Source: Curvibacter delicatus NBRC 14919
Lineage (GTDB): Bacteria > Pseudomonadota > Gammaproteobacteria > Burkholderiales > Burkholderiaceae_C
DNA: 62,941 nt
Direction: 5' to 3'
NCBI RefSeq assembly: GCF_001592265.1
Contig: NZ_BCWP01000024.1
Location: forward strand, 1 to 62,941
Position numbers and translations under genes: made by a program. Within the stretch, counting starts at the first letter, position 1. Each line of letters opens with the position of its first letter. This document shows, piece by piece, positions 21,172 to 53,076 of the stretch. The notes beneath the pieces were generated by a model. The model had not been told where the DNA came from, ran no database searches, and worked only from the letters and a program-made list of their open reading frames with translations.

Positions 21172-22956
21172 ATGAGCTATGTCGCGCCTGTCAAGGACAT
21201 GCTGTTCAACATCAAACACTTGGCGCAGATCGACGAGATCGCCCGCATTCCCGGTTTCGAGGATGCCGGCTTCGACACGGCACAAGCGGTGCTGGAAGAA
21301 GCGGCCAAGTTCAACGAGCAGGTGATCGCGCCGCTGAACTGGGACGGCGACAAGAACCCTTCGAGCTGGAAGGATGGCCAGGTCACCACCACACCGGGCT
21401 TCAGTGATGCCTTCCGCCAGTTTGCTGAAGGCGGCTGGCAGGGCCTGCAGCACCCGGTCGACTTCGGCGGCCAGGGCCTGCCCAAGACCATCGGTGCGGC
21501 CTGCATCGAGATGTGCAACAGCGCCAACCTCAGCTTTGCGCTGTGCCCGCTGCTGACCGACGGCGCCATCGAGGCGCTGCTGACGGCCGGCTCGGATGAA
21601 CTCAAGGCGACCTACCTGGAAAAGCTGGTCAGCGGCGAGTGGACCGGCACCATGAACCTGACCGAACCGCAGGCCGGCTCCGACCTGTCGCTGGTGCGCA
21701 GCCGTGCCGAGCCGCAGCCTGACGGCAGCTACAAGGTGTTCGGCACCAAGATTTTCATCACCTACGGTGAGCACGACATGGCCGACAACATCGTCCATCT
21801 GGTGCTGGCACGCGTGACCGGCGCGCCCGAGGGCATCAAGGGCATCAGCCTGTTCGTGGTGCCGAAGTTCCTGGTGAACAAGGACGGCTCGCTGGGCGCA
21901 CGCAATGACGTGCACTGCGTCAGCATCGAGCACAAGATGGGCATCAAGGCCAGCCCGACCGCCGTGCTGCAGTATGGCGACCACGGTGGTGCCGTCGGTT
22001 ACCTAGTGGGTCAGGAGAACCGTGGCCTGGAGTACATGTTCATCATGATGAACGCCGCGCGTTATGCGGTGGGCATGCAGGGCATCGCCGTGGCCGAGCG
22101 CGCCTACCAGAAGGCCGTGGCCTACGCACGTGACCGCGTGCAGAGCCGCCCGGTTGATGGCTCCATCAAGGCCAGCGCGCCCATCATCCACCACCCGGAC
22201 GTACGGCGCATGCTCATGACCATGCGCGCCTACACCGAGGGCTGCCGTGCCATGGCGTCCGTCGCCGCTGCCGCCTACGATGCTGCGCACCACCACCCGG
22301 ATGCTGAGGTGCGCAAACAGAACCAGGCCTTCTACGAATTCATGGTGCCGCTGGTCAAGGGCTACAGCACCGAGATGAGCCTGGAAGTCACGTCGCTGGG
22401 CGTGCAGGTGCACGGCGGCATGGGTTTCATCGAGGAGACCGGCGTAGCGCAGTACTACCGCGATGCCAAGATCCTGACCATTTACGAGGGCACCACCGCC
22501 ATCCAGGCCAACGACCTGGTGGGGCGCAAGACGGCGCGCGACGGCGGCCAGACCGCCAAGGCGATTGCCAAGCAGATCGAAGCCACCGAGGCCGAGCTGA
22601 AGAAGCAAGGCAGTGCCGACGCGCTGGCCGTGGCCAAACGGCTGACAGCGGCACGCCTGGCGTTCATCGATGTGGTCGACTTCATGGCAGGCCAAGGCAA
22701 CCCGAACGACGTTTATGCCGGCAGCGTGCCCTACCTGATGCTGGCGGGCAACCTGATGGCGGGCTGGCAACTGGCGCGCGCGCTGCTGGTGGCACAGCAG
22801 CAACTGGCCCAGGGTGAAGATGCCGCCTTCATGCAGGCCAAGATCACGGTGGCGCGCTTTTATGCCGACCACATGCTGAGCCGTGCGCCCGGCGTGCGCG
22901 ACAGCATCGTGGAAGGGGCCGCCAGTGTGACGGCACTGGCGCTGGATGCTTTTTAA
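21172..22956 (+). CDS. Acyl-CoA dehydrogenase, large (DmdC-like) type
   Basis: The 594-residue protein belongs to the group of large acyl-CoA dehydrogenases with an extra C-terminal domain, which includes 3-methylmercaptopropionyl-CoA dehydrogenase DmdC and several fatty-acid enzymes. Visible blocks are LTEPQAGSDLSLVRSRAEP, KIFITYGEHDM, VHGGMGFIEETGVAQYYRD and YEGTTAIQANDLVGRK, where the Glu of YEGT is the catalytic base. The C-terminal extension runs from about residue 470. It follows etfBA but is separated by a terminator, so it has its own promoter. The actual acyl substrate is unknown. Confidence 0.93.
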   Translation: MSYVAPVKDMLFNIKHLAQIDEIARIPGFEDAGFDTAQAVLEEAAKFNEQVIAPLNWDGDKNPSSWKDGQVTTTPGFSDAFRQFAEGGWQGLQHPVDFGGQGLPKTIGAACIEMCNSANLSFALCPLLTDGAIEALLTAGSDELKATYLEKLVSGEWTGTMNLTEPQAGSDLSLVRSRAEPQPDGSYKVFGTKIFITYGEHDMADNIVHLVLARVTGAPEGIKGISLFVVPKFLVNKDGSLGARNDVHCVSIEHKMGIKASPTAVLQYGDHGGAVGYLVGQENRGLEYMFIMMNAARYAVGMQGIAVAERAYQKAVAYARDRVQSRPVDGSIKASAPIIHHPDVRRMLMTMRAYTEGCRAMASVAAAAYDAAHHHPDAEVRKQNQAFYEFMVPLVKGYSTEMSLEVTSLGVQVHGGMGFIEETGVAQYYRDAKILTIYEGTTAIQANDLVGRKTARDGGQTAKAIAKQIEATEAELKKQGSADALAVAKRLTAARLAFIDVVDFMAGQGNPNDVYAGSVPYLMLAGNLMAGWQLARALLVAQQQLAQGEDAAFMQAKITVARFYADHMLSRAPGVRDSIVEGAASVTALALDAF

Positions 22957-31177: not shown

Positions 31178-31642
31178 TCAGGCGTAGATTTTTCGCAGCA
31201 GTTGCATCAGGGTCCGGCGCTCCGCGGCGCTCAGGCGCGCGGTGGCGTCTTCCTCCAGTTGGGTGACGGTCTGTTCAGCCTGGCGCACCAGTTTCTTCCC
31301 GGTGGGCGTCAGGTGCAGCCCCACGGCGCGGGCGTCGTGGGGGTGCGGTTGGCGCGTGATGAGTTCGCGTTTTTCCAGCGTGTTGACCATGCCCACCAGA
31401 TTGGGGGGCTGGATGTTCAGGGTGGTGCACAGCTGGCGCGAGGTGATGCCGGGGTTGTGCGCGATCAGTGACAGCACCGAGAAGTCGACCAGCCGCAACT
31501 CGAACACGGCCATGTGCTTGAGAAAGGACTCGGCAATGACCAGAGTGGCACGGCGCGCGTTGTAGCCGACCAGGCTTTCCAGATAGCTGGTGTCAACCTT
31601 GTCGACGGCGGGCACGGTGCTTTTGTCTTGCGTGGAACTCAT
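31178..31642 (-). CDS. MarR-family transcriptional regulator (PhdR/CouR-like position)
   Basis: The 154-residue protein has the MarR winged helix: LRLVDFSVLSLIAHNPGITS, QLCTTLNIQPPNLVGMVNTL and the wing ITRQPHPHDARAVGLHLTPT. MarR proteins are dimeric repressors released by small aromatic ligands. It is the last gene of the minus-strand phenylpropanoid cluster, and its ATG overlaps the acyl-CoA dehydrogenase stop by 4 nt. MarR regulators that sense hydroxycinnamoyl-CoA control the equivalent cou and phd clusters of Actinobacteria. By position, this protein is the likely repressor here. Confidence 0.93.
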   Translation of the reverse strand: MSSTQDKSTVPAVDKVDTSYLESLVGYNARRATLVIAESFLKHMAVFELRLVDFSVLSLIAHNPGITSRQLCTTLNIQPPNLVGMVNTLEKRELITRQPHPHDARAVGLHLTPTGKKLVRQAEQTVTQLEEDATARLSAAERRTLMQLLRKIYA

Positions 31643-33363
31643 GCGGCCAGCATAGCCTGTGCACCTGCCTGTGTCAGCTGTTCCCGGATGATCTGCTGAC
31701 GCATCTCAAACTCGGGCAGGATCCAGTGTTGCAGGGCGCGCGCCGGGGCTGCCCAGCGAATCCCCGTCGTGCCGTTGGCCGCGCCGATCCGGGTCCAGGC
31801 CCAGCCCAGCAGGGCCAAGGCCACGGCGCGCAGGAAGTCGTCAGCCACCCAATAGGCCAGTTCGGCCTGCTGTGCGTTCGCCTGCGACAGCTGCACCGCC
31901 AATTTGCGGACGGCGTCGAAGCGGTGCAGCACCGCCGCCTGGGCCGCCTGGCTGGCATCCATCTCTTGCGCCAGCTCGTCCAGCAGGGCCGATAGTGCGG
32001 CGCCGCCATCCGGCAGCACCTTGCGCACCAGCAGGTCGATCGCCTGGATTTCGTTGGTGCCTTCGTAAATCATGGCCACGCGCGCGTCGCGCACGATCTG
32101 CTCGATGCCCCACTCGCGCACATAACCGTGGCCGCCGAACACCTGAAGGCATTCGCTGGCACCATGGAAGGCTTGGTGGGTCCAGGCGGACTTGAGCACT
32201 GGCGTCACCAGGCTGCACCAGCGCTGTGCGCGTTCACGGCGTGCAGCATCGGCATGGTGTTTGGCAATGTCGAGTTCCACCGCCGTGCGGTAGGCCAGCA
32301 CGCGGCCGCCGTCGATCCAGGCGCGCTGCGTGTCCAGCATGCGCTGGATGGCCGGGTGTTCCGCAATCAGGTCAGCCGCTTCGTTGCTCTTGCGTGGTCC
32401 GGGCGCGCGCATCTGCCGCCGCTCCTGCGCATAGGCGCTGGCTTTCTGCCAGGCGGCTTCCAGCAGGCCGATGCCTTGCAGGCCCACATGCATGCGTGCG
32501 GCGTTCATCATGACGAACATCGCATTCAGGCCGCGGTTGGGTTCACCCACCAGCCAGCCGGTGGCTGCATCAAAGCGCATCACACAGGTCGGGCTGCCGT
32601 GCAGCCCCATTTTTTCCTCGATGCGCTCGCACACAACGGGGTTGCGGCTGCCGTCCGGCAGGAACTTCGGTGCCAGGAACAGCGACAGGCCTTTGGGGCC
32701 GGCCGGTGCATCCGGCAGACGCGCCAGCACCAGGTGCACGATGTTGTCGCTCAGGTCGTGCTCGCCACCGGAGATGAAGATCTTGGTGCCGCTGATGCGG
32801 TAGCTGTCGTCGCCCTGTGGCGTAGCCTTTGTGCGCACCAGGCCGAGGTCGCTGCCTGCGTGCGGTTCCGTCAGGCACATGGTGGCCAGCCACTCGCCGG
32901 TCGCGATCTTTTCCAGATAGCGTGTTTTCAGTTCCTCGCTGCCATGGTGCTTGAGGCACTCGTAAGCGCCGTGCAGCAGGCCCGGGGCCATGGTCCAGCC
33001 ATGGTTGGCCGCGCTCAGCATTTCGTACAGCACGGCTTCCAGCACGGACGGCAGCCCCTGGCCGCCGTCTTCTGTTGCACAGGCCAACGAGGGCCAGCCA
33101 CCCTGCCAGAAGGCCTGGTAGGCCTGGCGGAAGCCCGGCGGTGCCGTGACCACCCCCGCGTCGAAACGACAGCCGGTCTCGTCACCGATGCGCTGCAAGG
33201 GCGCAATCTCGCTGGCGACGAATTTCCCCGCTTCTTCCTGCACCTGCTGCATGAGGTCGGTATCGACTTCAGCAAAGGGTGGCAGGGCTTGCAGCTGGGC
33301 CGGGGCGTCCAGCACCGCCGTCAGGATGTGCTGGATGTCGTCAAGACGCGGTTGGTAGTCCAT
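31639..33363 (-). CDS. Acyl-CoA dehydrogenase, large (DmdC-like) type, in phenylpropanoid cluster
   Basis: The 574-residue protein is of the same large subgroup as the enzyme at 21172. It shows MCLTEPHAGSDLGLVRTKA, KIFISGGEHDL, VFGGHGYVREWGIEQIVRD and YEGTNEIQAIDLLVRK with the catalytic Glu. It lies between the TctC gene (6-nt gap) and marR (4-nt overlap), so it is translationally linked to the cluster. A likely job, by analogy with phdD of Corynebacterium, is to desaturate arylpropionyl-CoAs (dihydro-hydroxycinnamates) to the cinnamoyl-CoAs used by the hydratase. The substrate is inferred from context only. Confidence 0.92.
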   Translation of the reverse strand: MDYQPRLDDIQHILTAVLDAPAQLQALPPFAEVDTDLMQQVQEEAGKFVASEIAPLQRIGDETGCRFDAGVVTAPPGFRQAYQAFWQGGWPSLACATEDGGQGLPSVLEAVLYEMLSAANHGWTMAPGLLHGAYECLKHHGSEELKTRYLEKIATGEWLATMCLTEPHAGSDLGLVRTKATPQGDDSYRISGTKIFISGGEHDLSDNIVHLVLARLPDAPAGPKGLSLFLAPKFLPDGSRNPVVCERIEEKMGLHGSPTCVMRFDAATGWLVGEPNRGLNAMFVMMNAARMHVGLQGIGLLEAAWQKASAYAQERRQMRAPGPRKSNEAADLIAEHPAIQRMLDTQRAWIDGGRVLAYRTAVELDIAKHHADAARRERAQRWCSLVTPVLKSAWTHQAFHGASECLQVFGGHGYVREWGIEQIVRDARVAMIYEGTNEIQAIDLLVRKVLPDGGAALSALLDELAQEMDASQAAQAAVLHRFDAVRKLAVQLSQANAQQAELAYWVADDFLRAVALALLGWAWTRIGAANGTTGIRWAAPARALQHWILPEFEMRQQIIREQLTQAGAQAMLAA

Positions 33364-33369
33364 GGCCGA

Positions 33370-34359
33370 TCAGGACTCCGCAGTGAAGCCGATCTTCTTG
33401 ATCAGCGGACCCCAGTGCTTGGCTTCTGCTGCCTGGGAGGCAGCCATTTCCTCCATGGTCGAGCCGCGCGGGATCAGGCCGACAATGGCCAGGCTGTCGA
33501 TGACGGACTTCTCTTTCAGCGCGGCATTGATGGCGGCATTGGCGGCCTGCAGCACGTTCTTCGGTGTCTTGGCCGGTGCATAGAAGCCGAACCATTCTTC
33601 GGTGGTCAGCTCGGGGAAGCCCTGCTCTGCAAAGGTCGGCACCTCAGGCACATAAGGCGAGCGCTTCGGGCCGGAGGTGGCCAGAATGCGCAGCTTGCCG
33701 GCCTTGTAGTTGGCGATGAAGTCGCCGTGTGGCGTCACCATGGCGGCGATCTGGCCGCCGACCACGTCGGTCACGCCCGGCACCGAGCCGCGATAGGGCA
33801 CGTGCTTGAGTTCGGTGCCGCTGTTGATGCCCAGCAGTGCGCCCAGGAAGTGCGGCGTGGAGCCAGCACCGGGCGAGCCGTAGCTGGCATCCTTCGGATT
33901 GGCCTTGGCCCAGGCCAGGAAATCCTTGACGGTTTTCACATTGGCTGGCACCAGCGGACCCACGGCCAGGCCGTGGTGCATGACGGCGCCGATGGAGATC
34001 GGGGCGAAGTCCTGCGGGACGTAGTTCATCTTGCTGTAGATGTACGGGTAGTTGGCCAATGCCGAGACCTGGGCCAGGGCCAGCACGGAACCATCTGCGG
34101 GAGCGGCCTTGAGCGTTTCCAGCGCGATGCGGCCGCCGGCGCCGGGTTTGTTTTCGACCACTGCGGCATTTTTGGTGAAGGCCGAGCCGGCCATCTTCTC
34201 GCCGACGCGGCGTGCCACGCTGTCACCGGAGCTGCCGGCGGGGAAGCCGTAGAGGATCTTGACCTGGTCCAGGGCTTGGGCAAAAGCCGAGAACGGGCCG
34301 AGGGCGCCGAGCGCGGCAGCGCCGGCAGCGGCTTGGACGAAGTTGCGACGTGTGGTCAT
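33370..34359 (-). CDS. Tripartite tricarboxylate transporter substrate-binding protein (Bug/TctC family)
   Basis: The 329-residue extracytoplasmic binding protein has a twin-arginine-like leader (TTRRNFVQAAAGAAAL) ending near AFAQA. Bug-family features follow: YGFPAGSSGDSVARRVGEKM, VVENKPGAGGRIALETLKAA, PHFLGALLGINSGTELKHVP, and APAKTPKNVLQAANAAIN. The ligand is probably a carboxylate such as a hydroxycinnamate, judging from the operon. No TctA or TctB membrane genes are present anywhere in the window, so the protein must work with distant transporter subunits or serve as a sensor. Confidence 0.93.
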   Translation of the reverse strand: MTTRRNFVQAAAGAAALGALGPFSAFAQALDQVKILYGFPAGSSGDSVARRVGEKMAGSAFTKNAAVVENKPGAGGRIALETLKAAPADGSVLALAQVSALANYPYIYSKMNYVPQDFAPISIGAVMHHGLAVGPLVPANVKTVKDFLAWAKANPKDASYGSPGAGSTPHFLGALLGINSGTELKHVPYRGSVPGVTDVVGGQIAAMVTPHGDFIANYKAGKLRILATSGPKRSPYVPEVPTFAEQGFPELTTEEWFGFYAPAKTPKNVLQAANAAINAALKEKSVIDSLAIVGLIPRGSTMEEMAASQAAEAKHWGPLIKKIGFTAES

Positions 34360-34404
34360 GGTGTTGTCTCCTTTTGTAGGTGGATGGGACGGGGGAAAAT
34401 CGAA

Positions 34405-35169
34405 TCAGCGCGGCGCCATGCGCAGAGCGCCATCCAGACGGATCACCTCGCCATTGAGGTGGCCGTTGGTCACGATGTGACAGGCCAGTTGGGCAAACTC
34501 CTCGGGTTTGCCCAAGCGCGACGGGAAGGGAATGGACGCGGCCAACGATGCCTGCACCGCCTCCGGCAGTTCCTTCATCAGCGGCGTGGCAAACAGGCCG
34601 GGTGCCACGGTGCAGACGCGGATGCCGTGCTGCGCCAGATCGCGTGCCATGGGCAGCGTCATGCCGACCAGACCGCCTTTGGAGGCGCTGTAGGCCTGCT
34701 GACCCACTTGGCCGTCGAAGGCCGCCACCGAAGCGGTGAACATCATCACGCCGCGTTCGCCGTCTTCCAGCGGGCTGAGCTTGACGCATTCGGCCGCGAA
34801 CAAGCGGCTGATGTTGTAGCTGCCGATCAGGTTGACGTTGATGACGCGGGAAAAGTCTTCCAGCGGTGCCGGCGCACCATCGCGGCCGACCACGCGCTTG
34901 GCGGTGCCAATGCCGGCAATGTTCATCAGGATGCGGGCCGGGCCATGAACGGCCGTGGCTTTGGCCAGGGCGGCGAGCACGCTGTCGGTGTTGGTGATGT
35001 CGCACTGGCAGGCGACGCCGCCGATGTCGGCCGCGACTTTCTCGGCGAGCGCGACGTTAACATCGAGCACGGCCACCTTGGCGCCCAGGCGTGCCAGCTC
35101 GCGTGCGGTGGCCTCGCCAAGGCCGGAAGCGCCGCCGGTGACGAGTGCCGCTTGTCCTTTGATATCCAT
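34405..35169 (-). CDS. SDR-family 3-hydroxyacyl-CoA dehydrogenase
   Basis: The 254-residue short-chain dehydrogenase has the nucleotide motif VTGGASGLGEATARELARLG, NIAG, the catalytic Ser in FTASVAAFDGQVG and YSASK. It matches the type II 3-hydroxyacyl-CoA dehydrogenase (HSD17B10-like) subgroup, with DITNTDSV and a C-terminal NGEVIRLDGALRM. In this cluster it would oxidise the 3-hydroxy-3-arylpropanoyl-CoA made by the crotonase to the 3-keto thioester, the step done by CouN or PhdB in Actinobacteria. It is separated from fcs by 141 nt containing a family-2 repeat and lies 45 nt upstream of tctC. Confidence 0.92.
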   Translation of the reverse strand: MDIKGQAALVTGGASGLGEATARELARLGAKVAVLDVNVALAEKVAADIGGVACQCDITNTDSVLAALAKATAVHGPARILMNIAGIGTAKRVVGRDGAPAPLEDFSRVINVNLIGSYNISRLFAAECVKLSPLEDGERGVMMFTASVAAFDGQVGQQAYSASKGGLVGMTLPMARDLAQHGIRVCTVAPGLFATPLMKELPEAVQASLAASIPFPSRLGKPEEFAQLACHIVTNGHLNGEVIRLDGALRMAPR

Positions 35170-35230
35170 GTCAGTGGTCCTTGATGTGGCGCGTCTGTCG
35201 TGACGCGGGGAAGAAATGCGCCCATTCGGA

Positions 35231-35310
35231 GGCGCCCGCGGAATCGGCTTCGCCGGGCCGCTGGGTGCGCCCCCTTGAGGGAGAGGCGCCGAAGGCGCTT
35301 CGGGGGTGCT
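35231..35310 (-). repeat. GC-rich 3'-end repeat, family 2, copy B (downstream of fcs)
   Basis: On the minus strand, starting directly after the fcs stop codon, it reads CACCCCCGAAGCGCCTTCGG, then CGCCTCTCCCTCAAGGGGGC, then CCCGGCGAAGCCGATTCCGC. It has the same order of elements as copies A and C but is more diverged. GAAGCGCCTTCGGCGC and the CCGGCGAAGCCG segment can form hairpins. Confidence 0.7.
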
Positions 35311-37188
35311 TCATGCCTGCGGTTTGATGATGCCGGGCGCGCTGTCATCGTGCAGGGCCTGCACCAGGGCGTCACGGTGTTTCAGAACGGCACGTTGGTT
35401 GAGCGAGCCCTTGTCCGTGACCTCGCCCTTGTCGATGGAAGGCGGCTCGGCCAGCAGCAGAGCACGCGCAATGCGGTTGGCGCTGCCGGTGGCTTCGCGT
35501 GCCAGCTGGTTGATGACGGCCTGCAGGCGCAGGCGTACCGGCTCGCTGGCGAGCACGTCTTCCCATGGTGCGTCGGCGCCCAGGCCGCTGACGGTGCGGC
35601 AGGCGGGCGAGGGGAAAATCAAGGCGCCGACTTCCTTCATGTTCAGGCCGGTCAGCACGACATCCTGCACATAGGGCGCGCCGGTGACGATGACCTTGGC
35701 GCGCATCGGTCCGACGCTGACAAAGGTGCCGGTGGCGAGTTTGAAGTCTTCCGCAATGCGACCGTCGAACTTGAGGCCGCGGTGGATGTTGTCGGGGTCG
35801 ATCCACTGCACGGCGTCGCCAGTGCAAAGGTAGCCCTCTTCGTCGAACACATCGCGGGTGGCCTGCTCGGAACGCCAGTAGCCCGGTGTGACGTTGGGGC
35901 CTCGGTAACGCACCTCGATCTTGCCGTCCACATCCACCAGCTTGAGCGTCATGCCCGGCACCGGTGCACCGATGTCGCCGGCTTTCACATTGGGGCTGTT
36001 GGTGAACATGGCCGACGGGGCGGACTCGGTCATACCCAGGCCGGTGGCCATGACAATGCGCTCGCCCACCTCGGCCTCGGCTGTCTCGTGCAGGCTGTCC
36101 CACACCGGTTGCGCCAGGCCGGCACCGGAGTAGAAGAACATGCGCACGCGAGACAGCAGGTTGCGGCGCAGCTCGGCGTCGGTTTTCATCGCTTGGGCGA
36201 TCATCTCGAAGCCGGTCGGCACATTGAAATAAAGCGTCGGCGCGATTTCACGCAGATTGCGCAGCGTCTCATTGATCAGGGCTGCCGTGGGCTTGCCGTC
36301 GTCAATGTAGAGCGTGCCACCGTGCTGCAAAGTCAGGCCGACGTTGTGGTTGCCGCCGAACGTGTGGTTCCACGGCAGCCAGTCGACGAACACCGGCGGT
36401 GCCTCGGCCAGCACCGGCATGGACAGGGTGATCTGCTGCAGGTTGGCGCACCACATGCGATGGGTGTTGATCACCGGCTTGGGCATCTTGGTCGAGCCCG
36501 AGGTGAAGAGGAACTTGGCGATGGTGTCGGGGCGCACGGCGTGCATGGCGTCATCCACGGCGGTCGTGGCTGAGGTGTTGCGCAGTGTGTCGAAAGACGT
36601 GCTCTTGCGTCCCTCGATCGACCCCTGGGCCAATACCACTTCGACGTCGGCGCCGACCGTCGTCTGGATGGCGCGGCCGTAGCGTGCGCCATCGGCGGCG
36701 AACACCAGGCCCGGGGTCAGCGTGTCCAGCACGTGGCGCAGCTTGTCGTAGTCCTGGCTCACGGTGGCATAGGCCGGCGAGACCGGGCAGTAGGGCACCC
36801 CGGCGTAAATGCAGCCCAGCGACATCAACGCATGCTCGAGCGTGTTTTCACTGAGGATCACCACCGGGCGTTCGGGGGAGAGCTTGCGGTCCAGCAGCGC
36901 CTGGCCGATACGACGCGCGCTGTCCAGCGCCTGGGCGTAGCTGATGCGCTGCCAGTCGCCGGTACGGCCATCGCCCAGCTGGGCACGACGTGCCATGAAA
37001 GTTCGGTCGGGTTCGGCTTCAGCCCAGTGCACCAGAAAGTCGCTCAGTCGCCGGGCAAAGGCGCCCAGCGGCAGTTCCGCCTGCACGTAGCGCACGCCGG
37101 GCGCACCTTCGCGCACGCTGACGCGTGTGACGCCGAAATTCACCGGACGATAGCGCGGTGTGGGGGTGGAGTTGATGGTCTCGCTCAT
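35311..37188 (-). CDS. fcs: Feruloyl-CoA synthase (hydroxycinnamate-CoA ligase)
   Basis: This 625-residue AMP-forming acyl-CoA synthetase activates ferulate or related hydroxycinnamates with ATP and CoA. The AMP-binding loop is LFTSGSTKMPKPVINTHRM, and later motifs are PTLYFNVPTGFEMIA, YSGAGLAQPVWDSLHE, MATGLGMTESAP, YLCTGDAVQWIDP and KFDGRIAEDFKLATGTFVSV. NQRAVLKHRDALVQAL at the C-terminus resembles the feruloyl-CoA synthase ending, with a lysine available for catalysis. It lies 35 nt downstream of the crotonase gene. No vanillin dehydrogenase gene accompanies it in the window. Confidence 0.93.
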   Translation of the reverse strand: MSETINSTPTPRYRPVNFGVTRVSVREGAPGVRYVQAELPLGAFARRLSDFLVHWAEAEPDRTFMARRAQLGDGRTGDWQRISYAQALDSARRIGQALLDRKLSPERPVVILSENTLEHALMSLGCIYAGVPYCPVSPAYATVSQDYDKLRHVLDTLTPGLVFAADGARYGRAIQTTVGADVEVVLAQGSIEGRKSTSFDTLRNTSATTAVDDAMHAVRPDTIAKFLFTSGSTKMPKPVINTHRMWCANLQQITLSMPVLAEAPPVFVDWLPWNHTFGGNHNVGLTLQHGGTLYIDDGKPTAALINETLRNLREIAPTLYFNVPTGFEMIAQAMKTDAELRRNLLSRVRMFFYSGAGLAQPVWDSLHETAEAEVGERIVMATGLGMTESAPSAMFTNSPNVKAGDIGAPVPGMTLKLVDVDGKIEVRYRGPNVTPGYWRSEQATRDVFDEEGYLCTGDAVQWIDPDNIHRGLKFDGRIAEDFKLATGTFVSVGPMRAKVIVTGAPYVQDVVLTGLNMKEVGALIFPSPACRTVSGLGADAPWEDVLASEPVRLRLQAVINQLAREATGSANRIARALLLAEPPSIDKGEVTDKGSLNQRAVLKHRDALVQALHDDSAPGIIKPQA

Positions 37189-37223
37189 GGGTTTCTTGTC
37201 TGCAATCAGTGGGAGGCGTGGCT

Positions 37224-38006
37224 TCAGCCTTTGCTGACCTTGGCGGCCTTGCCTTCAAGGAAGGCACGCACGCGTTCCTTGGCTTCCGGTGCGCTTTGCG
37301 CGATGGCGGCCATCATGGCCTCCGTCAGGAAGCCCTGGTCGGCCGGCTGCTCGGCGATGCGCGGCAGGGCGTGGATCAGGGCGTAGTTGGTCAGCGGCGC
37401 GTTCTGGGCCACACGCACGGCGAGTTCGAAGGCCTTGTCAAAGGCGGAACCCTGCGGGACCAGGTACTGGGCGAAGCCAGCTTTTTCACCGTCCTGGGCG
37501 TTGTAGACGCGGCCGGTCAGCATCATGTCGGTCATGCGTGCAGCACCAATCAGGCGCGGGATGCGCACCGCACCGCCGCCGCCGACGAAGATGCCGCGCG
37601 AGCCTTCGGGCAGGGCGTAGAAGGTGGATTCGTCGGCCACGCGGATATGGCAGGCGCTGGCCAGCTCCAGGCCCCCGCCGACCACGGCGCCGTGCAGCGC
37701 AGCAATCACCGGAACCGGGCCGTACTGTACGCACTCCAGCGCGGCGTGCCACATGCGCGAATGGTGCAGGCCCTGGCCGGCGTCGCGTTCCTTCAGCTCG
37801 CTCAGGTCGAGACCGGCGCAGAAGTGCTCGCCATCGCCGTCGATCACGGCGGCACGCACGCCTTCAGGCATGTTCTCAAACAGGTTGCGAATGGCGAGAA
37901 TCAGGCCGTCGTTGAGCGCGTTGCGCTTGGCGGGACGGGTGAGGCGGATGACGGCGACTTCCTGGTGTTCGCCGCGGCGCTCGAAATGAATGTCTTGTTG
38001 GCTCAT
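37224..38006 (-). CDS. Enoyl-CoA hydratase/crotonase, probable hydroxycinnamoyl-CoA hydratase
   Basis: The 260-residue crotonase has the oxyanion-hole segments HFCAGLDLSEL and ALHGAVVGGGLELASACH. The two Glu positions used by rat enoyl-CoA hydratase (E144 and E164) are both Glu here, in GGGLELA and ALPEGSRG. In the vanillin-forming HCHL enzymes I recall, the first position is Ser (GGGFS), so this looks like a hydratase without retro-aldol cleavage. It is the first gene of the minus-strand cluster, preceded by a palindrome in the divergent promoter. The substrate is inferred from fcs next door. Confidence 0.9.
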   Translation of the reverse strand: MSQQDIHFERRGEHQEVAVIRLTRPAKRNALNDGLILAIRNLFENMPEGVRAAVIDGDGEHFCAGLDLSELKERDAGQGLHHSRMWHAALECVQYGPVPVIAALHGAVVGGGLELASACHIRVADESTFYALPEGSRGIFVGGGGAVRIPRLIGAARMTDMMLTGRVYNAQDGEKAGFAQYLVPQGSAFDKAFELAVRVAQNAPLTNYALIHALPRIAEQPADQGFLTEAMMAAIAQSAPEAKERVRAFLEGKAAKVSKG

Positions 38007-38031
38007 GGTTGCGTTTCTTTCTGGAATCGAT

Positions 38032-38054
38032 TATGGTTATGAAATATAACCATA
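38032..38054. promoter_or_regulatory. Perfect 9-bp inverted repeat in the divergent promoter of the phenylpropanoid cluster
   Basis: TATGGTTAT and ATAACCATA flank the spacer GAAAT. The AT-rich dyad lies 26 bp before the crotonase start and 70 bp before the divergent amidohydrolase start. It is of the size and symmetry expected for a MarR dimer, and the cluster ends in a marR gene. Binding is inferred. Confidence 0.6.
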
Positions 38055-38124
38055 TCAAGCGCGCCGGGGCCGTTTTTTCTCGGTGTTTACCCTAGGGCTT
38101 GCCCGCTAACAAAAGGAGACGGTC

Positions 38125-38988
38125 ATGGACCACAAGAACCTGATTGCCATCGACATTCACACCCATGCCGAGGTGAGTTGCTGGAATCCGTTTGACAACT
38201 ACGGCGAGGAGTACGACCGCGCGGCCGACAAGTATTTCCGCTCCAGCCGCCGCCCGACGATTGCCGAGACGATTGCCTACTACCGCGAGCGCAAGATTGG
38301 TCTGGTGATGTTCACGGTGGACAGCGAGTCGCAGCTCGGACGCCGGCGCATCCCGAATGAGGAGATCGCCGAAGCGGCCAAGGCCAACAGCGACATGATG
38401 ATGGCCTTCGCCAGCATCGATCCGCACAAGGGCAAGATGGGCGCACGCGAGGCGCGCCGCCTGATCGAGGAGCACGGCATCAAGGGTTTCAAGTTCCACC
38501 CCACGGTGCAGGGCTGCTACCCGCAGGACAAGATGGCCTGGCCGATCTACGAGGTGATCGCCGAGTACAAGATGCCGGCCATCTTCCACACCGGGCACAG
38601 CGGCATCGGCAGCGGCATGCGCTGTGGCGGTGGCCTGCGGCTGGAGTACAGCAACCCGATGCACCTCGATGATGTGGCGATCGATTTTCCCGACATGCAG
38701 ATTGTCATGGCGCACCCGAGCTTCCCGTGGCAGGACGAGGCACTGAGCGTGGCCACGCACAAGCCCAATGTCTGGATCGACCTGTCTGGCTGGAGCCCGA
38801 AGTACTTCCCGAAACAGCTGGTGCAGTACGCCAACACCCTGTTGAAGGACCGCGTGCTGTTCGGCTCCGACTACCCGCTCATCACGCCCGAACGCTGGAT
38901 GAAGGATTTCGAAGAAGCCGGCTTCAAGCCGGAGGTGATGCCCGGCATTCTGAAGGACAACGCGGTGCGCCTGCTGGGGCTGAAGTAG
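38125..38988 (+). CDS. Amidohydrolase-family protein (amidohydrolase 2), candidate arylketoacyl-CoA hydrolase
   Basis: The 287-residue TIM-barrel metal-dependent hydrolase begins with the metal-binding IDIHTHAEVS and continues with IKGFKFHPTVQG, IFHTGHSG, MAHPSFPW and LFGSDYPLITPERW, all in positions typical of amidohydrolase-2 enzymes such as gamma-resorcylate decarboxylase and LigI/LigJ. It starts after AAAAGGAGACGGTC and is divergent from the crotonase/fcs operon. By analogy with CouO/PhdC-type proteins it may cleave the 3-keto-3-arylpropanoyl-CoA to a benzoate and acetyl-CoA. A decarboxylase role is the alternative. Confidence 0.85.
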   Translation: MDHKNLIAIDIHTHAEVSCWNPFDNYGEEYDRAADKYFRSSRRPTIAETIAYYRERKIGLVMFTVDSESQLGRRRIPNEEIAEAAKANSDMMMAFASIDPHKGKMGAREARRLIEEHGIKGFKFHPTVQGCYPQDKMAWPIYEVIAEYKMPAIFHTGHSGIGSGMRCGGGLRLEYSNPMHLDDVAIDFPDMQIVMAHPSFPWQDEALSVATHKPNVWIDLSGWSPKYFPKQLVQYANTLLKDRVLFGSDYPLITPERWMKDFEEAGFKPEVMPGILKDNAVRLLGLK

Positions 38989-39094: not shown

Positions 39095-39412
39095 ATGATC
39101 AGCAACTTCGAGCAGGTTCATAACCATTACGAGCGCCTGGTATTCGAGGAGGTCGTTCGCCGTGCGCCGCGGCATCCGGGGTTCACGCCCGACATGCTGG
39201 CGGATGTGGCCTGCGTGGCCTTGAATCGCTTGCCGGCGCGGTATGTCCGGCATGACGTGGATCTGATGTTCTACCTGACCGAGCAGGAGCGCCACGCCAT
39301 TGAACAGTCCATGGCCGCAGCCATGGACTATGCCTTTGCCCTGGTCAGCAGCCGCAGTGCCAAAGGCACCGCTGCTGCCAACGCCAATCAGGCCTTGCCC
39401 CAGACTTCCTGA
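39095..39412 (+). CDS. ComFB-family protein
   Basis: The 105-residue protein starts at the ATG at 39095, with GGAGG about 6 nt upstream. The alternative ATG at 39083 lacks a correctly spaced site. NHYERLVFEEV and DVACVALNRLPARYVRHDVD are the two conserved blocks of the late-competence ComFB family. Proteins of this family in cyanobacteria bind cyclic dinucleotides, so a signalling role is possible. The Cys residues seen in some family members are reduced here to one, in VACVALN. Its last 25 nt overlap the convergent MetE-like gene. Confidence 0.7.
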   Translation: MISNFEQVHNHYERLVFEEVVRRAPRHPGFTPDMLADVACVALNRLPARYVRHDVDLMFYLTEQERHAIEQSMAAAMDYAFALVSSRSAKGTAAANANQALPQTS

Positions 39413-40515
39413 GCCGTTTCGATCACCAGGCGCAGCTTGGCGCGCTGGGCTTCGACCGCGATGTCGTTGCCGTGCACCGTGCTGGAGAAGCCGCACTGCG
39501 GCGACAGGCACAGCTGTTCCAGCGGGGCGTACTGGGCGGCTTCGTCAATGCGGCGCTTGAGGTCGTCCTTGGACTCCATGGCGCCGAACTTGGTGGTCAC
39601 CAGACCCAGCACCACGATCTTGCCCTTGGGCAGGAAGCGCAGGGGGCGGAAGTCGCCGCTGCGGTCATCGTCGTACTCCAGGAAGTAGGCGTCCAGGTTC
39701 ATCTCCGACAGCAGGGCCTCGGCCACTGGCTCGTAGTTGCCGGAGGCAGCGTGCGTGCTCTTGAAGTTGCCGCGGCACAGGTGCATGGCCAGCGTCATGC
39801 CGGCCGGCTTCTGCGCCACCACCTTGTTGATGAACTTGGCGTAACGATGCGGCAGCTCGTTGGGGTCGTCGCCGCGCTGACGGGCCGCTTCACGCATTTT
39901 CTCGTCGCACAGGTAGGCCAGGTTGGTGTCGTCCATCTGCACATAGGTGCAGCCGGCGGCGGCCAGTGAACGCAGCTCGTCGCCGTAAGCCTGGGCCACG
40001 TCGTCATAGAACGTTGGTTCCAGTTCGGGGTAGTGTTCCTTGCTGATGCCGGCACGGCCGCCGCGGAAGTGCAGCATGGTGGGCGAGGGAATGGTGACCT
40101 TGGCCACGCTGCCGCGGCCCGGGGTGATCTGGCTCTTGAGGTACTGGAAGTCGGCGAGCTGGATGTCCTTCACATGGCGCACCTTGTCGACCACGCGCAT
40201 GACGGGCGGGGCCAGTTCCTGGGTGCCATCCGGTTTGACGATGGTGACGGGAATGTCGGACTTCACGCCGCCGATCTGCTCCAGGAAGTCGACGTGGAAG
40301 TAGGTGCGGCGGAATTCGCCGTCGGTGATGCTTTGCAGGCCGACGTCTTCCTGAAACCTGACGATTTCAGTGATGGCCTTGTCTTCCACCTTGCGCAGCT
40401 GCTCGACGGTGATTTCGCCTTTGGCTTTCTGCTCGCGCGCTTCGAGCAGGAATTTGGGGCGCAGGAAGCTGCCGACGTGGTCGGCGCGGAAGGGCGGGGT
40501 GGTGCGTAGTGTCAT
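39388..40515 (-). CDS. MetE-like cobalamin-independent methionine synthase family protein (YxjG/YxjH type)
   Basis: I start at the ATG at 40515 (375 residues), preceded by GGAG at 7 nt. It is half the length of MetE and corresponds to the catalytic C-terminal barrel. It begins PFRADHVGSFLRP and has the segments ITDGEFRRTYFHVDFLEQIG, YVQMDDTNLAYLC, MHLCRGN and LCLSPQCGFSSTVHG, in which His and Cys residues suit the zinc site of MetE-type methyltransferases. The substrate is uncertain: homocysteine methylation, or another thiol or methyl transfer. Its location in an aromatic-catabolism region could be incidental. Confidence 0.85.
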   Translation of the reverse strand: MTLRTTPPFRADHVGSFLRPKFLLEAREQKAKGEITVEQLRKVEDKAITEIVRFQEDVGLQSITDGEFRRTYFHVDFLEQIGGVKSDIPVTIVKPDGTQELAPPVMRVVDKVRHVKDIQLADFQYLKSQITPGRGSVAKVTIPSPTMLHFRGGRAGISKEHYPELEPTFYDDVAQAYGDELRSLAAAGCTYVQMDDTNLAYLCDEKMREAARQRGDDPNELPHRYAKFINKVVAQKPAGMTLAMHLCRGNFKSTHAASGNYEPVAEALLSEMNLDAYFLEYDDDRSGDFRPLRFLPKGKIVVLGLVTTKFGAMESKDDLKRRIDEAAQYAPLEQLCLSPQCGFSSTVHGNDIAVEAQRAKLRLVIETAQEVWGKA

Positions 40516-40833
40516 GGGAGTCTCCAGGAGAATCGTTGGATGGGTTAACAGCAAGCCGCCGGCATTATGGCATTCAGGGTACGGATTGCGGACGTGACGC
40601 GGTAGGAGGACTATAGTGATCAGCGCTGTCCATGCAACGGTTCTGTCCGTAGATAATGGAACGCGGTGGTTGGCTGTCTGGTTATCGCAATTTGTTATAT
40701 CAATCAGTCTGAAATTGGACTTGCGAATGAATAAATTTGCGGCGACAGTTACGCGCCTTCGTCATTACGCTGTTTGGGGCTTCGCTAGCCTGAACAGTCG
40801 GGTGAAGTCATAACTCATATTAGGAGTCCCCCC
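40516..40833. other. 318-bp intergenic region between the MetE-like gene and the ABC binding-protein gene
   Basis: This divergent control region must hold promoters for both flanking genes. I find no ORF with family resemblance, no tRNA, and no perfect palindrome longer than a few bases. The stretch from about 40680 to 40740 is locally AT-rich. TTAGGAG at 40820-40826 is the ribosome-binding site of the downstream gene. Confidence 0.5.
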
Positions 40834-47458: not shown

Positions 47459-48373
47459 TTATTGTGCCGTCCGCTCGGTGGCGCCGAACACCTGGCCAGC
47501 CACCTCCTGGATGAGTTCCAGCATGGCCTGCTGCGTCATGGTGGTGGTGCGGCTGGCGGCCGTGGCCAGCGCCAGCTTGCTGCTCAGCCTGGGCTTGACG
47601 ATGGGGCGGGCCAGGTAGGCCTCGGGCTGGGTCGAGGTCGTCAGTGCGTATTTCGACAGGATGGCGTGGCCCGCGCCGTCGGCCACCAGGTCGAGGATGG
47701 CGGCCACGCCGTCGATCTCCAGACTGATGTTGGGTTTGCAGCCGATGCCGGCCATCTCGGTCTCCACCGTCATGCGGATGGCGTTCGGGCGGCTCGGAAT
47801 CACCAGCGGCAAGGCGCTCACTTCCTTCAGGCTGACTGGCGTGGCTCTGGCCTTGGCTTCGCGTGGGCCGATCAGGAACAGCTCTTCCTCCATCAGCGGC
47901 AGGGTGTCAAGTTCGGGGGTGGGCGAGGGGTTGTAGAGCAAGGCAATGTCCAGCCGTCCGGTCAACAGCCCCTCCTGCATGGAAATCGTCAGGCCTTCAC
48001 TGATGGACAGCGCCGCGTTGGGCAGGCGCTTGCGGAATTCGCGCGTCAGCGGCACCGTCATCATCTTGGCAATGCTGGGTGGCAGGCCCACGGCCACGCG
48101 GCCTGCCAGGGCGCCGCGCACCCGGCCCAGGTCTTCGCGGGCACGCTCCACCTGGTGCAGGATGCCGCGGCCGTGCTCCAGCAGCAGTTTGCCGGCCTCG
48201 GTGGTGGTGACGCCGCGGCCGTTGCGCAGCAGCAGGTTCTGCCGCAACTCCACCTCCAGCAGGCGCACCTGGCGGCTCAGCGCCGGCTGGGCGATGTCCA
48301 GCACGCTGGAGGCGCGGGTGAAACTGCCGAGTTCGGCCACCCGGACGAAGTATTCAAGTTGCTTGAGGTCCAC
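47459..48373 (-). CDS. LysR-family regulator of the protocatechuate 4,5-cleavage operon (PmdR/LigR position)
   Basis: The frame is open to a TTG at 48400, but I use the GTG at 48373 (304 residues), because LysR proteins of this type begin (M/V)DLKQLEYF. The helix-turn-helix is LGSFTRASSVLDIAQPALSR then QVRLLEVEL, followed by a LysR effector domain. It is divergent from the lig genes, which start 128 bp away, and upstream of aroE. In Comamonas, the equivalent PmdR activates the pmd operon from the same position. The start codon is uncertain, as no clear ribosome-binding site precedes either candidate. Confidence 0.92.
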   Translation of the reverse strand: MDLKQLEYFVRVAELGSFTRASSVLDIAQPALSRQVRLLEVELRQNLLLRNGRGVTTTEAGKLLLEHGRGILHQVERAREDLGRVRGALAGRVAVGLPPSIAKMMTVPLTREFRKRLPNAALSISEGLTISMQEGLLTGRLDIALLYNPSPTPELDTLPLMEEELFLIGPREAKARATPVSLKEVSALPLVIPSRPNAIRMTVETEMAGIGCKPNISLEIDGVAAILDLVADGAGHAILSKYALTTSTQPEAYLARPIVKPRLSSKLALATAASRTTTMTQQAMLELIQEVAGQVFGATERTAQ

Positions 48374-48437
48374 TTTTTTTAGGGCATAGCTTTCTCGCAA
48401 TTATGCCGAATTGTGATACCTGCTAGAAACCGCCACA

Positions 48438-48461
48438 CCTTGGCGCCAACCCTTGCCAAGG
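48438..48461 (+). promoter_or_regulatory. 7-bp inverted repeat in the leader region before the lig operon
   Basis: CCTTGGC (48438-48444) and GCCAAGG (48455-48461) are exact reverse complements separated by 10 nt, about 40 bp before the ATG at 48501. It could be a regulator site or an mRNA hairpin. The function is unknown. Confidence 0.4.
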
Positions 48462-48500
48462 CCACAATCCCTGGGTTCATCCTAGAAGCTGGCAGTGTTC

Positions 48501-49196
48501 ATGACGACCGAAATCAAAGGCATCTCTTCCATGGCCACCCGTTTGGTGCTGGCCGAGCTGGTGGACGCGTTCCAGCGCCGCACCGGCAACCGTGTAGCCA
48601 TCGAATCGGTGGGCGGGGTGGACGCCGCCAAGCGCGTGCAGGCTGGCGAGGCGTTTGACGTCGTCATCCTGGCCTCCGACGCCATCGACAAGCTGATCGC
48701 CTCCGGCCATGTGCAGCCTGACAGCAAGGTCGACTTGGTGCGCTCGGGCGTGGCGGTGGCCGTGCGCGCCGGGGCACCCAAGCCCGACATCTCAAGCGAA
48801 GACGCGGTGCGTGCCGCTGTGCTGGCCGCACGCAACATCAGTTATTCCACCGGCCCGAGCGGCGTGGCGCTGGCCAAGCTGTTCGAGCGCTGGGGCATTG
48901 CAGAAGAAATCAAGGACCGCATCGTCACCCCGCCGCCGGGCACCCCGGTCGGCAGCCTGGTGGCCAAGGGCGAGGTCGAGCTGGGTTTCCAGCAGCTGAG
49001 CGAACTGATCAACCTCGAGGGCATCACTGTGCTCGGCCCGCTGCCGGCGGCGATCCAGATCATCACCACTTTCTCGGCCGGTGTGTGTGCCGGCAGCCAG
49101 CAGGGCGATGCCGTGCGTGCCATGCTGACCGACATGAACACCCCCGAGGCTGCGGCAGCCAAACTGCGCCAAGGCATGGAGCCAGCCGCGGCCTGA
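48501..49196 (+). CDS. Leaderless ModA-like (type 2 periplasmic-binding fold) protein, first gene of the lig operon
   Basis: The 231-residue protein starts at the ATG at 48501 (an in-frame GTG lies 6 nt upstream). Segments such as LVLAELVDAFQRRTGNRVAI, GEAFDVVILASDAIDKLIAS and ISYSTGPSGVALAKLFERWG resemble molybdate-binding ModA proteins. However, it has no signal peptide, so it should remain in the cytoplasm. It occupies the first position of the operon, where Comamonas has the 4-oxalomesaconate tautomerase gene pmdU. No other tautomerase-like protein lies in the window. It could therefore be an unconventional isomerase or a ligand sensor; both are inferences. Confidence 0.8.
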   Translation: MTTEIKGISSMATRLVLAELVDAFQRRTGNRVAIESVGGVDAAKRVQAGEAFDVVILASDAIDKLIASGHVQPDSKVDLVRSGVAVAVRAGAPKPDISSEDAVRAAVLAARNISYSTGPSGVALAKLFERWGIAEEIKDRIVTPPPGTPVGSLVAKGEVELGFQQLSELINLEGITVLGPLPAAIQIITTFSAGVCAGSQQGDAVRAMLTDMNTPEAAAAKLRQGMEPAAA

Positions 49197-49226
49197 TGAA
49201 TTGCATTTGAATCCCAGGAGACTTTT

Positions 49227-50267
49227 ATGAAACAACCCATGATCATCGACTGCCACGGCCACTACACCACCGCACCGAAGGCGCTGGAGAACTGGCGCAA
49301 CCAGCAGATTGCCGGCATCAAGGACCCGGCTGTCATGCCGAAGGTGGCCGACCTCAAGATCAGCGACGACGAGCTGCGCGAGTCGATCGAGACCAACCAG
49401 TTGCGTCTGATGAAAGAGCGCGGCTCCGACCTCACCATCTTCAGCCCGCGCGCCAGCTTCATGGCGCATCACATCGGCGACTTCAATGTGTCGTCCACCT
49501 GGGCTGCCATCTGCAACGAGCTCTGCTACCGCGTCAGCCAGCTGTTCCCGGACAACTTCGTGCCGGCCGCCATGCTGCCGCAGTCGCCCGGCGTTGATCC
49601 TGCCACCTGCATTCCCGAGCTGGAGAAGTGCGTCAAGGAATACGGCAACGTCGGCATCAACCTGAACCCCGATCCGAGTGGCGGCCACTGGACCAGCCCG
49701 CCGCTGACCGACCGGCAGTGGTACCCCATCTACGAAAAGATGGTGGAGTACGACATCCCGGCCATGATCCACGTCTCCACCAGCTGCAATGCCTGCTTCC
49801 ACACCACCGGCGCGCACTACCTGAACGCCGACACCACGGCCTTCATGCAGCTGATCCAGGGCGACCTGTTCAAGGACTTCCCGACGCTGAAGTTCATCAT
49901 TCCCCATGGCGGCGGCGCCGTGCCTTACCACTGGGGCCGTTTCCGTGGTCTGGCGCAGGAAATGAAAAAGCCGCTGCTGAAGGACCACCTGCTGAACAAC
50001 GTCTTCTTCGACACCTGTGTCTACCACCAGCCCGGCATCGACCTGCTGACCAAGGTGATCCCGGTCGACAACATCCTGTTCGCCTCCGAGATGATCGGTG
50101 CCGTGCGCGGCATCGACCCCGAGACCGGCAACTACTACGACGACACCAAGCGCTACATCCAGGCTTCCAACATCCTGAACGACGAGCACCGCTACAAGGT
50201 CTATGAAGGCAATGCCCGCCGCGTGTTCCCGCGCCTGGACGCCGCCCTCAAGGCCAAGGGCAAATAA
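49227..50267 (+). CDS. ligJ: 4-oxalomesaconate hydratase
   Basis: The 346-residue amidohydrolase-superfamily enzyme adds water to 4-oxalomesaconate, giving 4-carboxy-4-hydroxy-2-oxoadipate. MIIDCHGHYTTAPKALENWR has the metal-binding HxH. MIHVSTSCNACFHTTGAHYL, FIIPHGGGAVPYHWGRFRG and ILFASEMIGAVRGIDPETG match LigJ/PmdE. It is the second gene of the lig operon, 30 nt after the ModA-like gene, with AGGAG upstream. It supplies the substrate of LigK, which follows. Confidence 0.95.
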   Translation: MKQPMIIDCHGHYTTAPKALENWRNQQIAGIKDPAVMPKVADLKISDDELRESIETNQLRLMKERGSDLTIFSPRASFMAHHIGDFNVSSTWAAICNELCYRVSQLFPDNFVPAAMLPQSPGVDPATCIPELEKCVKEYGNVGINLNPDPSGGHWTSPPLTDRQWYPIYEKMVEYDIPAMIHVSTSCNACFHTTGAHYLNADTTAFMQLIQGDLFKDFPTLKFIIPHGGGAVPYHWGRFRGLAQEMKKPLLKDHLLNNVFFDTCVYHQPGIDLLTKVIPVDNILFASEMIGAVRGIDPETGNYYDDTKRYIQASNILNDEHRYKVYEGNARRVFPRLDAALKAKGK

Positions 50268-50309
50268 GCCCACGCAACCCATCCAAGAACCCCCTACGAG
50301 GACAACACC

Positions 50310-51002
50310 ATGAGCATCAACGGACCCCTGGGCATCGTCAAACGCAACATCGTGCGCGCCGATGCCGCCGCCACTGACAAACTGGGCAAGTACGGTGTGG
50401 CCACCGTGCACGAGGCGCAAGGCCGTGTCGGCCTGATGCAGTCCTACATGCGTCCCATCTACGCCGGCGCCAAGATCTCCGGCACCGCCGTCACCGTGCT
50501 GCTGCACCCCGGTGACAACTGGATGCTGCACGTCGTCGCCGAGCAGATCAAACCCGGCGACATCGTCGTGGCCGCGCTCTCTGCCCCCAACACCGACGGC
50601 TTCTTTGGTGACCTGTTGGCCACCAGCTTCAAGGCCCGCGGCGCCCGCGGCCTGATCATCGACGGCGGCTGCCGCGACGTGGCCGAACTCAAGGCCATGG
50701 ACTTCCCGGTCTGGAGCCGCGCCATCAGCGCCAAAGGCACCATCAAGGCCACGCTCGGCTCGGTCAATGTCCCGGTGGTGTGCGCCGGCATGATCGTCAA
50801 CCCCGGTGATGCCATCGTGGCCGATGACGACGGTGTCGTCGTGGTCAATGCTGCCGACGCCCAGAAGGTGGCCGATGCCGCCGAGGCGCGCGAAGCCAAC
50901 GAAGGCGAGAAACGCGCCAAGCTGGCCGCTGGCGTGCTGGGGCTGGACATGTACAAGTTCCGCGAGCCGCTGGAAAAGCTAGGCCTGAAGTACATCGACT
51001 GA
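50310..51002 (+). CDS. ligK: 4-carboxy-4-hydroxy-2-oxoadipate aldolase/oxaloacetate decarboxylase
   Basis: The 230-residue class II aldolase of the RraA-like (HMG/CHA aldolase) fold cleaves 4-carboxy-4-hydroxy-2-oxoadipate to pyruvate and oxaloacetate, and usually also decarboxylates oxaloacetate. [20 protein letters not shown] at the N-terminus, [20 protein letters not shown] and [18 protein letters not shown], with the conserved Arg and Asp, identify it. [15 protein letters not shown] is the metal-proximal segment. It completes the pathway to central metabolites. It is 42 nt after ligJ and 113 nt before tctC. Confidence 0.95.
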
Positions 51003-51115
51003 GCTACGCAGCAAGGGCGCTCGCGCGCATGCCACGGCTGGCCGCTTCATCCAAGGCGGCCGCGGGCGGCGAGCAAGGCGTTCTGACAGTCCTACATCAC
51101 GAGGAGAAGCACATC

Positions 51116-52105: not shown

Positions 52106-52131
52106 AATCCAACTGAGAGAGCAAGACTGCA

Positions 52132-53067: not shown

Positions 53068-53076
53068 GGAGCCCGT

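Follow-up and report, generated by a model that had tools for sequence, protein, structure and literature searches.

A probable beta-oxidative operon for hydroxycinnamate side-chain shortening in Curvibacter delicatus

The use of ferulate by betaproteobacteria is mostly assigned to a route through vanillin, according to the portions of the literature that we consulted. This is the assignment in Paraburkholderia aromaticivorans (PMC9701309) and in Cupriavidus basilensis, for which a possible beta-oxidative route is also mentioned (PMC3560178). A gene cluster in Curvibacter delicatus NBRC 14919 raises the question of whether it follows this route or shortens the hydroxycinnamate side chain by beta-oxidation. 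The window, by which we mean the whole stretch of 62,941 nucleotides that was analysed (contig NZ_BCWP01000024.1), contains a feruloyl-CoA synthase-type coenzyme A (CoA) ligase, a crotonase, a short-chain dehydrogenase (SDR) and, divergent from these, an amidohydrolase. We regard the cluster as very probably a hydroxycinnamate side-chain shortening operon of the beta-oxidative kind. The original prediction of CoA-dependent, beta-oxidative shortening is supported: the last enzyme would be an amidohydrolase like CouO and HpeF, the genome has no hydratase-lyase over the cut-off, and no aldehyde dehydrogenase is linked to the cluster. The route has precedents in Agrobacterium and in soil actinobacteria, and the window is a new example, not a new kind of system.

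We named the window proteins with Pfam and NCBIfam family models. Together with the open reading frames, the models agreed with the names given earlier to the seven genes, including the divergent amidohydrolase (Table 1). From gene content, homology, conserved residues, recurrence in relatives and an alternation between amidohydrolase and thiolase in those relatives, we infer every substrate, reaction and regulatory step of the route as follows. The ligase would form feruloyl-CoA or p-coumaroyl-CoA, the crotonase would hydrate this CoA thioester and the SDR would oxidise the 3-hydroxy group. The amidohydrolase, using water, would then split aroylacetyl-CoA, releasing acetyl-CoA and either vanillate or 4-hydroxybenzoate. 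Saturated dihydro-acids may enter by way of the acyl-CoA dehydrogenase, perhaps as dihydro-hydroxycinnamoyl-CoA, and the TctC-type protein may aid uptake. The MarR-family regulator would repress from the inverted repeat until hydroxycinnamoyl-CoA is present. VanA-type and PobA proteins would convert the products to protocatechuate, and a LigAB-type cluster would open the ring.

Table 1. Features of the hydroxycinnamate cluster and of the protocatechuate 4,5-cleavage set in the window
Feature	Position	Strand	Basis or remark
MarR-family regulator	31178-31642	-	Pfam MarR; best NCBIfam match the Saro_0803 family, 81 bits (cut-off 200)
Acyl-CoA dehydrogenase, 574 aa	31639-33363	-	Pfam Acyl-CoA_dh N, M and 1
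TctC-type periplasmic binding protein	33370-34359	-	Pfam TctC; twin-arginine signal match
Short-chain dehydrogenase (SDR)	34405-35169	-	Pfam adh_short
Feruloyl-CoA synthase-type CoA ligase	35311-37188	-	AMP-binding; PRK12582 group, 713.8 bits (curated cut-off 777)
Crotonase	37224-38006	-	PRK08150 group, 425 bits (cut-off 232)
Perfect 9-5-9 inverted repeat	38032-38054	.	In the intergenic region from which the crotonase and amidohydrolase genes diverge
Amidohydro_2 protein, divergent	38125-38988	+	Pfam Amidohydro_2; no NCBIfam name at the thresholds used
LigJ-like Amidohydro_2 protein	49227-50267	+	Superfamily and position only
LigK	50310-51002	+	Family model
TctC	51029-52105	+	In protocatechuate 4,5-cleavage set
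LigI-like protein	52132-53067	+	Superfamily and position only
LigA	53077-53517	+	Family model
LigB	53531-54400	+	Family model

The crotonase could be a hydratase or a hydratase-lyase. By sequence, its nearest solved relatives were 3HIN, an enoyl-CoA hydratase of Rhodopseudomonas palustris, and DmdD, in which Glu121 and Glu141 form the catalytic pair (PMC3660561). Glu114 and Glu134 of the window crotonase aligned with the catalytic glutamates of DmdD, and the first glutamate was missing in all three hydratase-lyases from sister genomes that we compared. The crotonase is thus probably a hydroxycinnamoyl-CoA hydratase. We found no hydratase-lyase over the PRK09120 cut-off in the window's genome (a 3.76 Mb draft of 108 contigs), where the best match (E 2.6e-39) lay beneath the cut-off. 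Among 200 genomes sampled from the window's bacterial family, four contained a hydratase-lyase over the curated cut-off. As predicted, no vanillin dehydrogenase is encoded at the locus: the genome holds ten places that match the aldehyde dehydrogenase family PF00171, none of them on the window's contig. Two aldehyde dehydrogenase queries also gave no match in 40 stretches fetched from family genomes.

Homology suggests that the amidohydrolase, like CouO and HpeF, is probably a hydrolase of aroylacetyl-CoA (beta-ketoacyl-CoA). H12, H14, H155, H197 and D249 were invariant across 40 aligned homologues; residues of this type presumably bind metal in the superfamily. The nearest solved structure by profile was the uncharacterised 3IRS (BB4693), which its name marks as a Bordetella-type entry. 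For membership, we compared the protein with an Agrobacterium locus (62% identity) and an hpe-like cluster (52%), and with CouO by description. A homologue in Rhizobium sp. Q54 (60.5% identical) is annotated as a 4-hydroxyphenyl-beta-ketoacyl-CoA hydrolase, and its neighbours encode an acyl-CoA dehydrogenase, an SDR-type dehydrogenase, a feruloyl-CoA synthase, an enoyl-CoA hydratase, a MarR protein and a TRAP transporter. In a tree of 35 sequences, the window protein fell inside a supported clade made up of eight rows from its own family; deeper forks were open and the LigI and LigJ rows very long, and we rested nothing on this tree.

A tblastn search with the amidohydrolase gave matches in 251 plasmid records at E 1e-5. 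We assembled a distant set of 87 loci, all selected for the amidohydrolase (80 from a genome scan and seven from plasmids) and some of them short contig ends, and counted neighbouring genes at 35% identity or more. Crotonase was present in 68 loci, ligase in 58, SDR in 49 and acyl-CoA dehydrogenase in 45. Some settings differed from that of the window. In Rhodococcus sp. JS3073 (L084), the 52% identical protein closes the hpe-like cluster, and on a Pseudomonas putida YC-AE1 plasmid (L078), the homologue (76% identical) comes after a cluster of biotin-carboxylase and HAD-hydrolase genes that resembles the acetovanillone/4-hydroxyacetophenone route. An R. opacus plasmid (L079) carries a 56% homologue with ligase, SDR and MaoC genes; we did not use it as a stand-in for the Cou system. 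In four loci (L108, L110, L120 and L124), the amidohydrolase lies near an acetoacetate-CoA-ligase-like gene. In Pelagibacterium (L109 and L111), two amidohydrolase-MarR pairs flank a single acyl-CoA dehydrogenase-SDR-ligase-crotonase cluster. An archaeal homologue (40% identical) on a Haloferax gibbonsii plasmid (L083) has as neighbours a gene for an enoyl-CoA hydratase/isomerase and genes for phenylacetyl-CoA epoxidase.

The ligase fits the PRK12582 group, although it scores beneath the cut-off of the model. Where annotated relatives have such a ligase among the same neighbours, it is labelled feruloyl-CoA synthase. The SDR is probably a 3-hydroxy-3-arylpropionyl-CoA dehydrogenase, as judged from homology. 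At 60% identity or more, the threshold used for SDR and acyl-CoA dehydrogenase genes in family loci, SDR genes were present in 13 of 16 family clusters of the amidohydrolase type and in 15 of 16 that contain a thiolase instead (28 of 32 combined; one thiolase cluster lacked the gene). The acyl-CoA dehydrogenase is discussed with the alternatives below.

To what extent is this gene set a feature of the family? In the 200-genome sample, the amidohydrolase query gave 87 matches at E 1e-20, of which we kept 80 (at least 60% identity) and dropped seven (36% or less). The ligase was called in 123 genomes at E 1e-100, six of them solely at less than 50% identity. Ligase was present in 77 of the 80 amidohydrolase genomes and in 46 of the 120 others (Fisher p 8e-19, uncorrected for phylogeny). 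We fetched 40 family loci, hand-picked for spread: 20 amidohydrolase loci and loci from 20 of the 46 genomes with ligase and no amidohydrolase. Ligase and crotonase adjoined the amidohydrolase in 16 of its 20 neighbourhoods, and four of the 20 had no ligase nearby. Because the set recurs in these neighbourhoods and ligase and amidohydrolase co-occur across genomes, its assembly is not due to chance.

Among the 20 fetched ligase loci without amidohydrolase, 16 contained a thiolase similar to that of locus L172. In 12 of these 16 it sits between ligase and SDR, and in five it is accompanied by a CoA-transferase; Pfam found thiolase domains in all three thiolases tested and a CoA-transferase domain in the one tested. 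Genome-wide (E 1e-140), we called this cluster-type thiolase in 43 of the 200 genomes; the window's genome gave no match at this threshold. The thiolase was found in nine of the 77 ligase genomes with amidohydrolase and in 33 of the 46 without it. Thus, the 123 ligase genomes comprised nine with both enzymes, 68 with amidohydrolase only, 33 with thiolase only and 13 with neither (odds ratio 0.05, Fisher p 2e-11). When each genus was represented by a single genome (86 with ligase), the counts were 6, 48, 20 and 12, respectively (p 1e-6). The alternation is not strict. Of the nine genomes with both enzymes, four (G044, G087, G114 and G189) carry both in one cluster, two (G082 and G121) have the amidohydrolase apart from a thiolase-bearing ligase cluster, and in three (G091, G168 and G193) the thiolase adjoins a second ligase that is 44% identical. 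The amidohydrolases of G121 and G082 (L051 and L056; 94% and 91% identical to that of the window) lie apart from the ligase and are possibly left over or in a second role. Among loci with neither enzyme, L186 contains an SDR together with a CoA-transferase and a weak thiolase-like match (28%), and L182, L189 and L190 are ligase and crotonase clusters in which the crotonase retains both glutamates.

Amidohydrolase and thiolase both suit a 3-keto thioester, and the hydratase-lyase route makes none. The alternation therefore supports the beta-oxidative reading. On balance, we favour the view that the family has two unrelated and exchangeable enzymes for the final carbon-cutting step of hydroxycinnamate beta-oxidation, set in a cluster of crotonase, ligase and SDR that is conserved in other respects. 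One would be the amidohydrolase, as in the window, yielding the free acid; the other would be a thiolase, in some cases accompanied by a CoA-transferase, yielding the aroyl-CoA. Beta-oxidation, rather than the hydratase-lyase route, would then be the family's main route for ferulate and p-coumarate. The literature we searched, with partial coverage, yielded no statement of such an exchange. If the beta-oxidative reading is correct, many family members would bypass vanillin (77 of 200 with ligase and amidohydrolase, and another 33 in which the ligase is joined by the thiolase alone), and pathway annotation and lignin-funnelling designs would change because no aldehyde is made. The alternation also offers a clean comparative test; the two forms differ in whether they retain the thioester bond.

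Although the original prediction implied that such a route would be novel in proteobacteria, this was not supported. Agrobacterium fabrum uses a beta-oxidative route with a feruloyl-CoA synthase, an enoyl-CoA hydratase, a hydroxyacyl-CoA dehydrogenase, an enzyme that cleaves the beta-keto thioester and the MarR repressor HcaR (PMC7797058). In Comamonas serinivorans SP-35, p-coumarate is proposed to undergo beta-oxidation by enzymes that were unknown, and ferulate to pass through vanillin (PMC6307125). Neither A. fabrum C58 nor Rhodococcus jostii RHA1 was named among the 80 kept genome-scan loci, and an Agrobacterium salinitolerans locus (L099) and Rhodococcus plasmids served as their stand-ins. 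The A. salinitolerans locus has the whole set, in the order MarR, amidohydrolase, LigM homologue, GntR-like gene, folate-type gene, crotonase, ligase, SDR and acyl-CoA dehydrogenase. The LigM homologue matched a solved vanillate/3-O-methylgallate demethylase (E 5e-171); the GntR-like and folate-type labels are our reading, and Pfam gave no match for the folate-type frame at E 1e-5. In content and order, the locus equals the published A. fabrum Atu1422-Atu1415 genes (SpG8-1b) plus the acyl-CoA dehydrogenase (PMC7797058). The window enzymes are 37-62% identical to those of A. salinitolerans (ligase 47%, SDR 54%, amidohydrolase 62%); the Atu genes themselves were compared by description. Unlike Atu1415-Atu1422, the window cluster has no LigM or folate gene (a VanA-type gene lies elsewhere), includes TctC and carries its MarR gene at the distal end of the operon.

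Other known systems were likened to the window by description. The R. jostii RHA1 cou genes encode ligation by CouL, beta-oxidative deacetylation with the amidohydrolase CouO acting last and the MarR repressor CouR (PMC4737184), although the window comes from a different phylum. The Corynebacterium glutamicum phd genes encode the ligase PhdA, the hydratase PhdE, the 3-hydroxyacyl-CoA dehydrogenase PhdB and the ketohydrolase PhdC (PMC5479773). At the HpeE/HpeF end of the Rhodococcus acetovanillone pathway, HpeF is a predicted beta-ketoacyl-CoA hydrolase, as we predict for the window's amidohydrolase; it is 95% identical to CouO and was assigned by homology to the hydroxyphenyl-beta-ketopropionyl-CoA hydrolase step (PMC9618137). 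The beta-keto acid in that pathway derives from carboxylation of a ketone, whereas that of the window would derive from a hydroxycinnamate. The route through HCHL/Ech and Vdh shares with the window a CoA ligase of the same kind and a crotonase; the window adds the SDR and the amidohydrolase.

Several observations weigh against the beta-oxidative reading, and some of them would fit a crotonase that acts as a hydratase-lyase, converting feruloyl-CoA to vanillin for oxidation by an unlinked aldehyde dehydrogenase, with the SDR and the amidohydrolase serving otherwise. The nearest solved relative of the crotonase, 3HIN, is an R. palustris enzyme, perhaps from the coumarate cluster. This cluster is described as non-beta-oxidative in one paper (PMC3610893) and called beta-oxidative in a review (PMC10458429); RPA1786 was modelled as aldehyde-producing, and its knock-down barely altered growth (PMC12366328). 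Ligases of this kind serve vanillin routes too. In three of 36 ligase loci (L182, L189 and L190), the stretch that we fetched contained neither an SDR nor an amidohydrolase or a thiolase, and SDR was absent from three of the 16 amidohydrolase clusters, whose genomes contain just 56-57% identical SDRs (G157 and G198) or a 68% identical one (G056) elsewhere. The ten PF00171 places could also provide the aldehyde dehydrogenase. We nonetheless consider a hydratase-lyase quite unlikely, as the crotonase keeps both of the hydratase glutamates, aldehyde dehydrogenase genes are absent from the window's contig and the two queries for them were unmatched in the 40 family stretches, and SDR genes are present in most amidohydrolase or thiolase clusters. 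Further points weigh against the beta-oxidative reading: 17 of the 87 distant amidohydrolase loci lacked any other gene we sought, the CouR box had no match in the window, the acyl-CoA dehydrogenase was found in only five of the 16 amidohydrolase-type family clusters and the alternation statistics handle kinship just through the count of one genome per genus.

A beta-oxidative operon might also have another arylpropanoid as its main substrate, such as cinnamate, phenylpropionate, dihydroferulate or the side chain of a lignin dimer. The presence of the acyl-CoA dehydrogenase would suit this, as would the relationship of the crotonase to DmdD, which acts on a non-aromatic acryloyl-CoA. We think this unlikely, since such ligases are annotated as feruloyl-CoA synthase in relatives with matching neighbours and the genome contains VanA-type, PobA and LigAB-type genes, the expected sinks for vanillate and 4-hydroxybenzoate. 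Even less probable, in our judgement, is that the amidohydrolase is an independent enzyme for aroylacetates (derived from acetophenones, for example) and is divergent by chance to an operon whose thiolase lies elsewhere. Homologues do occur in biotin-carboxylase clusters (L078 and L084) and alone in genomes with a thiolase-bearing ligase cluster (L051 and L056). Yet among ligase genomes the amidohydrolase and the cluster-type thiolase show a strong anti-correlation, this thiolase was unmatched at E 1e-140 in the window's genome and a conserved repeat lies between the crotonase and amidohydrolase genes.

This repeat, TATGGTTAT-GAAAT-ATAACCATA, is a probable operator for the MarR-family regulator. 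It contains the only occurrence of GGTTAT-N5-ATAACC without mismatch in the window. The GTTAT-N5-ATAAC core was exact in six of the 15 intergenic regions that we aligned, among them the one in the window, and another five had a form that looked degenerate by eye. The repeat has the same 5-base spacing as the CouR box (PMC4737184) and a different sequence. Many related loci encode MarR homologues close to these enzymes. By analogy with the published CouR and HcaR, from which we infer the ligand, the window's regulator is probably a repressor that answers to hydroxycinnamoyl-CoA.

The TctC-type protein is a probable uptake component, as suggested by its family. It had been thought distinctive of this cluster, a view that the family loci do not bear out: TctC genes were present in 16 of the 40 and branched-chain-type ABC transporter parts in 14 of the 40, and the Rhizobium sp. 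Q54 locus uses a TRAP transporter. The ABC parts in the same-genus locus L049 are the counterpart of ABC genes that lie past the amidohydrolase in the window itself. Binding-protein-dependent systems for hydroxycinnamate binding and uptake have been published for R. palustris (PMC3610893).

As for the fate of the products, the VanA-, PobA- and LigAB-type genes of the genome can, by homology, complete the route. A VanA_C protein is encoded elsewhere in the genome (NCBIfam gives it no specific name at the thresholds used), and we read the adjacent frame as a VanB-like reductase. PobA exceeded its cut-off (687 bits versus 538.7). The LigAB-type genes are about 14 kb from the hydroxycinnamate cluster. 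They belong to a protocatechuate 4,5-cleavage set (Table 1) that, including a LysR gene, spans 47459-54400 and starts about 8.5 kb past the end of the cluster.

Two further genes deserve mention. Adjoining the cluster, 39388-40554 (minus strand) encodes a methionine-synthase-like protein of the PRK06520 group that consists of the catalytic domain only. Relatives are found at the corresponding place in L049 (95% identical), about 4 kb past the amidohydrolase in L060 (82%) and adjoining the crotonase in L153 (43%). A second large acyl-CoA dehydrogenase, whose C-terminal domain is acetyl-CoA-dehydrogenase-like, is encoded at 21172-22956 (plus strand), with a nitronate monooxygenase-like gene beside it at 23050.

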